Shown one piece after another: positions 48,760-53,229 of a DNA stretch of 64,000 nt (its first letter is position 1; the number at the start of each line of letters is the position of its first letter). This DNA is from Rhodanobacter sp. C01 (GTDB taxonomy: Bacteria; Pseudomonadota; Gammaproteobacteria; Xanthomonadales; Rhodanobacteraceae): positions 496,001-560,000 of the forward strand of contig NZ_MUNR01000014.1 of the NCBI RefSeq assembly GCF_002001045.1. Direction: 5' to 3'. Both the position numbers and the translations under genes were made by a program. The notes under the pieces were generated by a model that was given only the letters and a program-made list of their open reading frames with translations, made no database searches and was not told the origin of the DNA.

Positions 48760-49023
48760 ATGTCGAAGATCGAGGTCTATTCCACCGCCGTATGCCCGTA
48801 CTGCGTGGCCGCCAAGAACCTGCTCAAGTCCAAGGGACTGGAGTGGAACGAGGTGCGCGTCGATACGGATCCGGCTCAGCGCGACGCCATGCTGGCGCGT
48901 AGCGGTGGACACCGCACAGTGCCGCAGATCTTCATCAACGACCAGTTCGTGGGTGGCTATGACGAGCTGGTGGCGGCCGATCGCAGCGGCAAGCTGGCGC
49001 AATTGCTGGAGCAGGTTGCATGA
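48760..49023 (+). CDS. grxC: Glutaredoxin 3
   Basis: An 87-residue dithiol glutaredoxin with the active site CPYC (TAVCPYCVAAKNLL) and the glutathione-binding TVPQIFINDQFVGGYDEL. It reduces protein disulfides with glutathione. ATG 48760 follows GGAG; the longer open frame upstream runs antisense to bepA. It overlaps the next gene by four bases, so the two redox proteins are cotranslated. Confidence 0.95.
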   Translation: MSKIEVYSTAVCPYCVAAKNLLKSKGLEWNEVRVDTDPAQRDAMLARSGGHRTVPQIFINDQFVGGYDELVAADRSGKLAQLLEQVA

Positions 49024-49400
49024 GCGACAAGCTTGCCGAATTCACCGCGTTCCGCCAGCGCATGAACGAGCGCATCCTGGCCGAGGACAACCAGGTCGTG
49101 CGGCGCTTCTTCGCGCTGGACACGCAAACCTACAAGGCCGGTGCGCTGGACGTGAGGACCAAGGAGATGCTTGGCCTGGTCGCCTCGCTGGTACTGCGCT
49201 GCGATGACTGCATCAGCTACCACGTGGCACAGTGCAAGGAAGCCGGCGTCGAACGCGATGCGTTCTTCGAGGTGTTCAGCGTGGGGCTGGTGGTGGGTGG
49301 CTCGATCGTGATCCCGCATCTGCGTCGTGCGGTGGATCTGCTCGATCAGCTGGAATCAGGCGCCACCACTGATGCGGCGTGCTGCAACGATCACGCCTGA
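49020..49400 (+). CDS. AhpD-like carboxymuconolactone decarboxylase family protein
   Basis: A 126-residue all-helical protein of the AhpD/CMD fold. The motif CDDCISYHV is the CxxCxxxH redox site of alkylhydroperoxidase-like members. VRTKEMLGLVASLVLR precedes it as in the family. Coupling to glutaredoxin (ATGA overlap) suggests that glutaredoxin reduces its disulfide; that is an inference. The 231 bases after it contain a weak promoter-like GATAAT at 49553-49558 for the next gene and nothing else I can name. Confidence 0.88.
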   Translation: MSDKLAEFTAFRQRMNERILAEDNQVVRRFFALDTQTYKAGALDVRTKEMLGLVASLVLRCDDCISYHVAQCKEAGVERDAFFEVFSVGLVVGGSIVIPHLRRAVDLLDQLESGATTDAACCNDHA

Positions 49401-50674: not shown

Positions 50675-50705
50675 AAAAGCCGCGGCGATCAGCCGCGGCT
50701 TTTTC
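50675..50705 (+). terminator. Intrinsic terminator after isocitrate dehydrogenase
   Basis: The 12-bp stem AAAAGCCGCGGC/GCCGCGGCTTTT with the loop GATCA ends in a T tract. A smaller GAGCCT/AGGCTC hairpin precedes it at 50645-50660. The A-rich 5' side makes it work for the convergent gene as well. Confidence 0.9.
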
Positions 50706-50717
50706 ATGGCCGGCGAT

Positions 50718-51173
50718 TCAGTGCGATGCCGGCTTGTAGTTGCCCACGTCGGCCTGCGACGGGATGGCGATGCGGTTCCAGCTGTTGATAAGGATCACCG
50801 CCAGGTCGAGGTCGACCAGCTCCTTTTCGCTGAACTGGGCGCGAGCCTCCCCGTATACCTCGTCGGATATGCCGTGGACCGGATCGAGTCGGGTCACTGC
50901 TTCGCACCAGGCCAGTGCAGCGCGTTCGCGTGCGCTGTAGAACGGCGCCTCGCGCCAGGCCTGCAGCAGGTACAGGCGCTGTTCGGTTTCGCCGGCGGCG
51001 CGGGCGTCCTTGCTGTGCATATCCAGGCAATAGGCGCAGCCGTTGAGTTGCGAGGCACGCATCAGCACCAGTTCGATCAGGCCTTGTTCGAGGCCGCAGT
51101 TTCTGACGTATTCGCCCAGGGCAAAAAGCGGCTTCAGGGCTTCGGTGTGCCTGGTGGCATTGAAACGGGGCAT
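50718..51173 (-). CDS. AhpD-family carboxymuconolactone decarboxylase-like protein, ECF41 target
   Basis: A 151-residue member of the CMD/AhpD family with the CxxCxxxH site (NGCAYCLDMHSKDAR). Typical of the subgroup are LVLMRASQLNGCAYC at the N-terminal half and ALAWCEAVTRL...FSEKELVDLDLAVILINSWNRIAI at the C-terminal half. Genes of this kind are the standard neighbours of ECF41 sigma factors. Its start lies 48 bases downstream of an ECF41-type promoter embedded in the end of the sigma gene. Its substrate is unknown. Confidence 0.9.
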   Translation of the reverse strand: MPRFNATRHTEALKPLFALGEYVRNCGLEQGLIELVLMRASQLNGCAYCLDMHSKDARAAGETEQRLYLLQAWREAPFYSARERAALAWCEAVTRLDPVHGISDEVYGEARAQFSEKELVDLDLAVILINSWNRIAIPSQADVGNYKPASH

Positions 51174-51210
51174 GGGGATTTCCTTGCAGTGTACGGCCGG
51201 GATTGGCCAC

Positions 51211-52113
51211 TCAATGCAAGGACGCCGATGCTGCCGGTTTCGTGACAGCCGCCAGCCGGGCGAGCTTGTCGGGGTGGCGCAGGGAGTGCACGGCGGTGAT
51301 GCGCTCGCCGTCGTCGTCGATCCAGCTGGCCGTGATCAGCGTGTCGCCATGCCAGCCGAACAGGGCCGGCATGCCATTGAGCTGGCGGATCTCGTGGCGC
51401 ACGCCGTAGCGCTGCTGTTGCAGCGCAATCTGCATGTAAAGGCGGGTCAGCCGCTCGGCTCCGTGCAACGGATGCAGGGTGGCTCTTGCCAGGCCGCCGC
51501 CGTCGGCAACGCTCATGGCATCCTCGGCAAACAGGGCTCGAAGGGTGGGTATGTCAGGCTGCTGCAGCGCCTGCATGAAGCGTTCGAGCAGACGCCGCTG
51601 GGTGGCGATGTTCGGCATCGCCTGGCGCGGACGATCCTCGCGCAGCCGTTGCTTCGCGCGGTGCACGCGCTGGCGGCAGGCATCCTCGCCAATGTCGAGC
51701 ATCGCGGCCGTCTCGGCGTGGCTGTAATCGAATACTTCGCGCAGCAGGAAGGCGGCGCGTTCTTCCGCGCTCAACCGTTCCAGCAATAGCAGAAAGCTCA
51801 GGGTCAGACTCTCGGCACGCTCCAGTTGTGCCTCGGGCTGTTCGGACTCCGCGATCAGTGGCTCCGGCAGCCAGGGGCCGGGATAGTGCGCACGTTCGGT
51901 CTTGGCGCGGCGCAGGCGATCCAGTGCGATGCGCGTGGTCACGGTGACCAGCCATGCCTCGGCATCGTCCAACGCCTCGATATCCTGCGCATGCAAGCGC
52001 AGCCACGCGTCATGCAGCACGTCCTCGGCATCGGTCGGTGTACCGAGCATGCGGTAGGCCAGCCCGAACAGGCGGGGGCGGTGTTGCTGGAACAGGTCAG
52101 CAGGCGAATCCAT
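51211..52113 (-). CDS. ECF41-family RNA polymerase sigma factor with SnoaL-like C-terminal domain
   Basis: A 300-residue extracytoplasmic-function sigma factor. Region 2 is seen in DLFQQHRPRLFGLAYRMLGTPTDAEDVLHDAWLRL, then the linker YPGPWLPEP (the WLPEP signature), region 4 in LSAEERAAFLLREVFDYSHAETAAMLDIGEDACRQRVHRAK, and a fused SnoaL/NTF2-like domain with DGGGLA and HPDKL near the end. These three motifs define ECF41, in which the fused domain replaces an anti-sigma factor. I start at ATG 52113 (MDSPADLFQQ), preceded by GGAG; the upstream TTG/ATG at 52140/52137 lie at or before the predicted transcription start. Confidence 0.93.
   Translation of the reverse strand: MDSPADLFQQHRPRLFGLAYRMLGTPTDAEDVLHDAWLRLHAQDIEALDDAEAWLVTVTTRIALDRLRRAKTERAHYPGPWLPEPLIAESEQPEAQLERAESLTLSFLLLLERLSAEERAAFLLREVFDYSHAETAAMLDIGEDACRQRVHRAKQRLREDRPRQAMPNIATQRRLLERFMQALQQPDIPTLRALFAEDAMSVADGGGLARATLHPLHGAERLTRLYMQIALQQQRYGVRHEIRQLNGMPALFGWHGDTLITASWIDDDGERITAVHSLRHPDKLARLAAVTKPAASASLH
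51221..51247 (-). promoter_or_regulatory. ECF41-type promoter of the AhpD-like gene
   Basis: On the minus strand TGTCACG-N16-CGTC matches the ECF41 promoter TGTCACA-N16-CGTC with one substitution. It lies inside the last codons of the sigma gene, 47 bases from the AhpD-like start codon, and lets that gene be transcribed separately. Confidence 0.8.
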
Positions 52114-52141
52114 GGCGTTCTCCGACGAGGTACGCATCAAG

Positions 52142-52168
52142 GACGCACGAGAATCATTCGATGTGACA
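52142..52168 (-). promoter_or_regulatory. ECF41-type autoregulatory promoter of the sigma gene
   Basis: On the minus strand TGTCACA-N16-CGTC is an exact match to the ECF41 promoter as I recall it. It ends 28 bases before the chosen sigma start codon, implying positive autoregulation. Confidence 0.85.
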
Positions 52169-52185
52169 GCTCAGCGGAGCATCGT

Positions 52186-53142
52186 TTATCGAAGCAGCGG
52201 CCAAGGCGCCAGGAAGATCAGCCAGATCAGCAGCAGGATGCCGAGGTATTTGCAGGCCTTGTAAAGCTTCTTGTGGCGGCTCTTGAACGCAACCTTGAAC
52301 GCATGGCTGGCGCCGCGCCTGCGCTGACTCAACGCAAACAGGCGGTTCACGAAACCGGTCTCCTCAACCTCGCCTTCGGTGTTCGGCGACGCGGTGATCT
52401 TGCCCATGAACGCGCCAACGCGGTGGTTGATCGCATTCATCCAGCGCGTACGCAGTGGTCGCTCGACGTCGGCGAACAGGATCACGCGGGTCTGCTCGCT
52501 GGTATTTTCGGCCCAGTGCACATAGGTCTCGTCGAACACGACGTCCTTGCCGTCACCCCATGCGTGCTCCTCGCCGTCGACGAAGATCCGGCAACTCCTC
52601 GAATTGGGTGTGATCAGACCCAGGTGATAGCGCAGCGAACCAGCGAATGGATCGCGGTGCGGATTGAGTTTGCTGCCCGGTGGCAGCAGCGCGAACATCG
52701 CGGCCTTCACGCTGGGGATCGATTTCAGCAAGGCGACCGTCTGCGGGCACAACGCCTCGGCCGAGGCCAGCGGTTCGCCGTACCACTTCAGGTAGAAACG
52801 CTTCCAGCCCTGCTTGAAGAAACTGTTGAAGCTGGCGTCGTTGTTCTTGGCGGCGGCGCGGATGTAACCCTCGTCGAACAGATGCGTCGCCTCGTCACGG
52901 ATCGCCTGCCAGTTCGCCTGCAGCAGGTCCAGCTGGGGGAAGCCACGGCGGTCCAGGATTGGCCGCGCCGGCACTGCCGAGAACGCGTACATCAACAAGT
53001 TGTACGGCGCAAAAATCGCCGAGTGGTCGACCAGCTGGCGATCGAAACGCAGCCGCACACGCCCGCGCAGGTGCACCAGCAGCACGCACAGCGCGAAGAA
53101 GACGAACAGGAGCAGCAGAACAAGGCGGGGAGCAAGGATCAT
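52186..53142 (-). CDS. LpxO-like aspartyl/asparaginyl beta-hydroxylase
   Basis: A 318-residue iron/2-oxoglutarate dioxygenase anchored in the membrane. An N-terminal helix (LVLLLLFVFFALCVLLVHL) is followed by RQLVDHSAIFAPYNLLMYAFS, as in LpxO, and by the catalytic core with the iron ligands HRDPF and, later, VHWAEN, plus the 2-oxoglutarate Arg region RVILFADVERP. A second helix closes the C-terminus (LGILLLIWLIFLAPW). LpxO hydroxylates a secondary acyl chain of lipid A. ATG 53142 is chosen; ATG 53160 is possible. Lipid A as the substrate is inferred. Confidence 0.85.
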   Translation of the reverse strand: MILAPRLVLLLLFVFFALCVLLVHLRGRVRLRFDRQLVDHSAIFAPYNLLMYAFSAVPARPILDRRGFPQLDLLQANWQAIRDEATHLFDEGYIRAAAKNNDASFNSFFKQGWKRFYLKWYGEPLASAEALCPQTVALLKSIPSVKAAMFALLPPGSKLNPHRDPFAGSLRYHLGLITPNSRSCRIFVDGEEHAWGDGKDVVFDETYVHWAENTSEQTRVILFADVERPLRTRWMNAINHRVGAFMGKITASPNTEGEVEETGFVNRLFALSQRRRGASHAFKVAFKSRHKKLYKACKYLGILLLIWLIFLAPWPLLR

Positions 53143-53229
53143 GCAGACAGGAGCAACCATGGCAGGGCAGTCATTGCTTCATTCTACTCGTTTGCCTTGG
53201 GCCACTGCGTCCGGAAGGGATGCCAGCGT

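Follow-up and report, generated by a model that had tools for sequence, protein, structure and literature searches.

The locus examined here, within a 64,000-nt stretch of Rhodanobacter sp. C01 DNA (the window), carries an ECF41-type sigma factor gene followed by an AhpD-like gene, with a matching promoter motif facing each. It raises the questions of how far the regulon of such a sigma factor extends and how the promoter of the second gene comes to lie within the codons of the first. The ECF41 group was defined by Wecke et al. (2012; PMC3426412) through a WLPEP linker and a C-terminal extension that is both inhibitory and activating; its members neighbour a CMD/oxidoreductase/epimerase (COE) gene and use the promoter TGTCACA-N16-CGTC. 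The available text of that study gives 53 loci of this gene order, of which 14 have a promoter before the sigma gene and 24 one before the partner, and places promoters before both genes of the ECF-COE pair at about 20% of such loci. Paired promoters before sigma factor and partner are already published and are not new. In two organisms the partner COE gene or operon was the sole target, and the same available text records neither an inducer nor a phenotype (PMC3426412).

Organisation of the sigma-ahpD locus

The features of the locus, in window coordinates, are as follows.

50675..50704, no strand assigned: terminator-like inverted repeat, G+C-rich and bordered by runs of A and of T, between the convergent ahpD and icd
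50718..51173, minus strand: AhpD-like protein of the CMD family (151 aa) with a CAYC motif, ATG at 51173
51214..51243, minus strand: sigma codons 291-300 (tail TKPAASASLH), carrying P2 together with V290
51221..51247, minus strand: P2, TGTCACG-N16-CGTC within the 3′ codons of the sigma gene, facing ahpD (extended match 51217-51248)
51214..52113, minus strand: ECF41 sigma factor of 300 aa with sigma2, sigma4 and a putatively SnoaL-like extension, ATG at 52113, stop codon to 51211
52142..52168, minus strand: P1, TGTCACA-N16-CGTC, upstream of the sigma gene (the extended consensus matches at 52138-52169)
52189-53160, minus strand: gene for an LpxO-like lipid A hydroxylase directly 5′ of P1 (LpxO model 410.5 bits; the equivalog cut-off is 500 bits)

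A sequence-only reading of this DNA had described an ECF41-type sigma factor with a fused SnoaL-like tail beside an AhpD/CMD partner, and the ECF41-type sigma factor and its partner were borne out, the tail being putatively SnoaL-like. In the sigma factor the Sigma70_r2 and r4_2 domain models both scored above cut-off, with 140 residues beyond them, and the NCBIfam whole-protein model for SigJ was exceeded (276.9 against a cut-off of 271); the SigX4 model was not reached (299.9 against 323.25), and the SnoaL_2 match (E 0.0035, 18.4 bits) lay under the 27-bit cut-off. The best solved relative was Mycobacterium tuberculosis SigJ (PDB 5xe7, E 9e-35). The linker contains WLPEP, with columns W81-P85 identical across 66 aligned sequences. 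DGGG and NPDKL-type motifs are marks of the ECF41 extension; the translation contains DGGG and HPDKL, and many relatives have HPGKL or NPEKL. The partner matched PF02627 at 67 bits, which makes it a CMD-type neighbour as expected for ECF41, and the AhpD core domain model TIGR00778 (59.5 against 27.8 bits), with CAYC as its CxxC motif. We call it AhpD-like rather than AhpD because it scored only 23.3 against 191.95 bits with the full AhpD subfamily model TIGR00777; its closest solved relatives were PA0269 and Atu0492 (PDB 2ijc, 2o4d and 2gmy, E about 1e-35). Around the sigma gene lie ORFs resembling LpxO, AhpD and icd (the last identified by its translation), and no anti-sigma gene is adjacent to it. 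The terminator-like repeat after ahpD gave a scan match at 50694-50678. We also noted a second CMD-family gene at 49020-49397 on the plus strand (PF02627, 57.7 bits), across icd from ahpD and, by eye, after a glutaredoxin-like ORF.

The two promoter motifs that had been read from the sequence were likewise confirmed: P1 (52168-52142, minus strand) ends 28 nt before the sigma ATG at 52113, and P2 (51247-51221, minus strand), in the last sigma codons, ends 47 nt short of the start codon of ahpD (ATG 51173). An in-frame TTG at 52140, upstream of the sigma ATG, lies at most 2 nt from the CGTC of P1. The loose form TGTCACR-N14..18-CGTC matched twice in the window, both times at the sigma-ahpD locus; shuffled windows averaged 0.61 matches and 11 of 100 reached two, so that by itself the short motif carries little weight. 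In the whole 3.98-Mb genome TGTCACR-N16-CGTC had seven matches, against two for the reversed control. An extended consensus derived in this analysis from relatives, CKGTCACR-N16-CGTCCTKG, matched the genome perfectly at exactly two sites, P1 and P2; at up to two mismatches it gave 59 matches against 45 for the control, near background. Across the window and 78 named relatives, mostly of 65-92% identity with two at 47%, a P1 core of GT[CA]AC, a 16-nt spacer and CGTC precedes the sigma gene in all 79.

Further genomic matches to TGTCACR-N16-CGTC were considered as promoters or targets and set aside, L001 and L007 because they fall within long open frames and L005 because it falls within a coding frame. 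L004 (G000:C7:314755), before an ORF that by eye is EmrA-like, was rejected as an ECF41 target since it is exact also in a genome without the sigma factor (G136); matches turned up in 5 of the 21 genomes of the genus, among which G116 did not cover the site.

A predicted third target ahead of an efflux block

The locus had been read as self-contained, a minimal two-gene circuit, and this part of the reading was not supported by a search of 147 family genomes with CNGTMACR-N16-CGTCCTKG. Extra extended matches in six genomes (G126, G018, G067, G039, G013 and G049) fell at one shared place, before an unannotated ORF of about 80-100 aa, behind which lie marR and a NodT-type gene. The site in our genome, P3 (G000:C9:280646-280672), is one of the seven genomic matches described above. 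Here the small ORF is followed by marR, nodT, emrA-like and emrB-like genes, and its position is given below.

L305 (G000:C9) 2221-2490: conserved, unannotated small ORF behind P3, found in 70 of 147 family genomes

The small ORF had no Pfam or NCBIfam match at curated cut-offs, the best being DUF7709 at E 0.078. Several genera carry two copies about 1.2-1.5 kb apart with, by eye, an XRE- or AraC-like gene between them.

A core-exact P3 was present in 46 of the 51 genomes with both the small ORF and a close ECF41, against 2 of 19 with the small ORF and no close ECF41 (Fisher 5e-10, the genomes being related and the counts therefore not independent events). When the six discovery genomes and our own were removed, the proportion was 39/44. 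By copies, for which 90 upstream regions were scored and one was skipped as too short, P3 was core-exact in 46/69 with a close ECF41, 0/14 with a distant ECF41 only and 2/7 with none; the reverse-strand control gave 0/90. Many of the 23 copies lacking P3 in the first class are second paralogues in genomes with P3 elsewhere, and five genomes lack it despite a close ECF41 (G145, G048, G095, G117 and G146). Separately, G146 was seen to encode a 190-aa ECF41-like sigma factor (L159, G146:C1) missing most of the C-terminal extension, together with a full-length one elsewhere.

It is unlikely, in our assessment, that the circuit has two targets only and that P3 either answers to another sigma factor or serves as a different operator. 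Such a reading would agree with Wecke et al., whose only targets in the available text are COE genes and the sigma gene (PMC3426412), and with the poorer fit of our own P3, which lacks part of the extended consensus (two mismatches). It also gains from G127, in which no ECF41 was found and a core-exact P3 is retained. The G127 site looks like a true relic, and the GTAAC-like match in G133, also without ECF41, looks like another operator. Against it stand the co-occurrence of P3 with close ECF41s, the absence of P3 from all 14 copies in genomes with only distant ECF41s, and two Rhodanobacter genomes in which no ECF41 was found, where the flanks of P3 align and the site has decayed (the -10 is changed in G136 and both elements in G052).

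A shift in the -35 core bears on the same point. GTAAC replaces GTCAC at P1 in 7/79 loci and at P2 in 7/76, at both in six; the eight loci concerned form one group by identity, and at P2 the change is a synonymous GTC to GTA. P3 reads GTAAC in 5/5 core-exact copies of genus g22, against 1/43 of the others (G133). The exceptions are G054 (GTCAC at P1 and P2, GTAAC at P3), G082 (GTCAC at P2 only) and G009, from another genus (GTAAC at P2 only). Thus in one genus the -35 cores of P1, P2 and P3 shift imperfectly, mostly together. Residues that set the sigma factors of the GTAAC clade apart were compiled; none could be linked to -35 contact, and they may be lineage signal only.

These comparisons suggest that an unnamed small gene at the head of a drug-efflux operon is also activated by the sigma factor; the ECF41 regulon is probably not self-contained, and its predicted third target, P3, challenges the view of the COE gene as sole target. 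Two other extended-consensus matches were noted. One in G060 (L156) was rejected as a further target, as it appears not to precede a gene; the other (L153, G021:C1, at 2411) precedes an ORF that by eye is NAD-epimerase-like; epimerases make up the third partner class known for ECF41 in the available literature (PMC3426412).

A predicted promoter within the codons of the sigma factor tail

That a second promoter is hidden in the 3′ coding end of the sigma gene had also been claimed from the window, and in the relatives this proved a better finding than the circuit itself. P2 lies within sigma codons at every one of the 73 intact loci in which only 29-57 nt separate the sigma stop from the start of ahpD, with a 16-nt spacer and a fixed register measured from the end of the stop codon (-36 in 71 loci, -30 in two); L085, whose sigma gene is frameshifted, was dropped from this count, its P2 sequence being intact. 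Where ahpD is not directly next (at a distance of 13 kb, 214 nt or 151 nt, or in divergent orientation) the embedded promoter is absent (0/5), and in all five loci the tail codons lack the -35, the -10 or both: L045 retains GTCAC with CGTA at the -10, L053 retains CGTC without a -35, L117 has lost both elements, and the tails of L102 and L110 are unrelated.

The genome of L045 (G093) has a 13-kb block separating sigma and ahpD; the ahpD side keeps an intact tail and promoter copy, apparently non-functional as protein, and the copy on the sigma side has decayed. The roughly 13 kb between the two genes (L148, G093:C13), bounded at both ends by a copy of the sigma tail with P2, holds metabolic-looking genes. 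Among a more distant set of 76 ECF41 loci the motif was embedded in 9/9 with AhpD close downstream, at -33 or -36 and encoding V-T then S (the nine include duplicates of L115 and L097, and L160 counts as close by the first of its two ahpD matches), and in 0/8 with AhpD at least 88 nt downstream, where it was intergenic in five of the eight (one being a duplicate of L045). The remaining 59 loci had no motif within 40 nt of the sigma stop.

The codons bear the mark of the promoter. P1 and P2 share the extra consensus positions even though P1 is non-coding and their spacer sequences differ: the C before the -35 is common to 94% of P1 and 96% of P2 sites, and the C, T and G after CGTC to 94/95, 90/99 and 89/92% (P1/P2), respectively. 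In all 73 loci Val 290 is GTC or GTA (39% gene-wide), Thr 291 is ACG or ACA (37%), codon 297 ends in CG, and Ser 298 is TCC or TCT (20% of Ser codons gene-wide); Leu at codon 299 is TTG in 66/68 (9%), and T occupies the wobble position preceding GTC in 45/73 (8%). By excess codon identity, codons 298, 297, 299, 290 and 291 rank 2, 3, 4, 7 and 16 of 291 for synonymous constraint. Rank 1 is taken by codon 131 (Ser, window about 51723-51721), which lies outside any recognised promoter; being more constrained than any promoter codon, it counts against promoter-driven constraint.

Because the P2 codons follow the same extended consensus as the non-coding P1, the promoter appears largely to dictate the sigma tail, which is probably dispensable to the protein. 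That the tail (VTKxxxxxSLH) is instead kept because the protein needs it, with promoter-like DNA as a by-product, we judge very improbable. V290, T291 and S298 are nearly invariant, as such a need would predict, and according to the available text of PMC3426412 the activity of ECF41 factors depends on part of their extension; yet the synonymous choices match non-coding P1, rare TTG and GTA codons included, other ECF41s end almost at once after NPDKL, and the tail is decayed or different at 5/5 loci with a non-adjacent ahpD. The tail is also predicted to be disordered, residues 293-300 having pLDDT below 50, as has the linker 82-103 (shallow-alignment AlphaFold model, mean pLDDT 75, pTM 0.46). 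Least credible of all is that P2 is a decoy or pause site and ahpD is expressed from P1 alone: no terminator-like site was found between sigma and ahpD, so P1 could read through, but P2 moves with ahpD, intergenic copies preceding the displaced gene in L053, L117 and G093 and the second copy of tandem ahpD duplicates in L118, L067, L160 and L074 having its own P2-like promoter.

The placement of P2 within the sigma ORF would follow from a sigma-ahpD gap of only about 30-60 nt, which leaves no intergenic room; the embedding is best explained by how closely the two genes are packed, selection having later frozen it. Occlusion of P2 by P1 transcription is possible; no evidence that the overlap itself regulates was seen in the loci compared.

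Proposed regulation and relation to known ECF41 systems

The explanation that we consider likely overall is a self-inhibited ECF41 sigma factor with autoactivation from P1, an embedded P2 and a remote P3. The fused, putatively SnoaL-like domain would hold the sigma factor down until some signal releases it, whereupon it would guide RNA polymerase to CKGT[C/A]ACR-N16-CGTCCTKG promoters. P1 would provide autoactivation, with possible read-through into ahpD, and P2 would add ahpD-only transcripts and lift effector output above that of the sigma factor; its predicted start is at about the sigma stop codon, and the transcript should therefore carry ahpD alone. The autoactivation and separate boost of ahpD foreseen by the sequence-only reading are thus probable, given a matching promoter before each gene. 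As the sigma ORF runs through P2, the promoter would dictate the V-T ... S-L codons of the tail, and the distant P3 would drive the small ORF that heads the marR-nodT-emrA-emrB block. Once released, the sigma factor would raise itself, ahpD (by P1 read-through and P2), the small ORF and perhaps the efflux genes behind it. The sequences themselves show the motifs, their fixed register, the codon constraint, the conservation of P3 alongside the sigma gene and the common -35 shift; transcription, autoactivation and read-through we infer, and ligand release by analogy with published ECF41 work. The AhpD-like partner and the efflux neighbour suggest reactive or toxic small molecules as the sensed signal.

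The family is ordinary, the overlap unusual and well supported, and the new target testable. ECF41 factors are widespread, and the predicted third target, conserved and next to efflux genes, offers a concrete hypothesis for what they sense and do; if true, it would for the first time point ECF41 towards a physiological role, in stress from toxic compounds or peroxides coupled to export. Embedded P2 illustrates cleanly, and in natural replicates, how a promoter can shape the end of a protein; in relatives freed from the constraint the tail has drifted. Part of the sigma factor would then have been written by the very regulatory element that it recognises. That the target promoter dictates the last dozen codons of the sigma gene throughout Rhodanobacteraceae and some relatives, with the sigma factor also commanding the small protein of an EmrAB-type block, we believe slightly more than we doubt. 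In the literature available to us, we found no coding-embedded ECF41 promoter and no ECF41 efflux target; a word search of the available text of PMC3426412 turned up no promoter inside a coding region, and an overlap only in a remark on R. sphaeroides genes.

Among solved structures, M. tuberculosis SigJ (PDB 5xe7) aligns with the sigma factor only as far as residue 237, and the closest relatives of the partner, PA0269 and Atu0492 (2ijc, 2o4d, 2gmy), are hypothetical proteins in those entries. Sinorhizobium meliloti RpoE9, also an ECF41, resembles the present system in having a CMD partner with CxxC and a matching promoter, and differs in its CMD gene lying upstream of sigma and in its single target, according to the available text of PMC6180224. 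Azospirillum RpoE10 (ECF41) is said to control lateral flagella, beyond its neighbour, with targets that differ from those here (cited in PMC12826043 and PMC8999054, as available). Close parallels are Ecf41Bli of Bacillus licheniformis and Ecf41Rsp of Rhodobacter sphaeroides, which in the available text share WLPEP, an extension of about 100 residues and the lack of an adjacent anti-sigma gene, and whose group shares the CMD-type neighbour, TGTCACA-N16-CGTC and, sometimes, a promoter before both genes (PMC3426412). In contrast to these systems, the locus described here has P2 within sigma codons at a fixed register, a longer promoter consensus and a predicted remote target.
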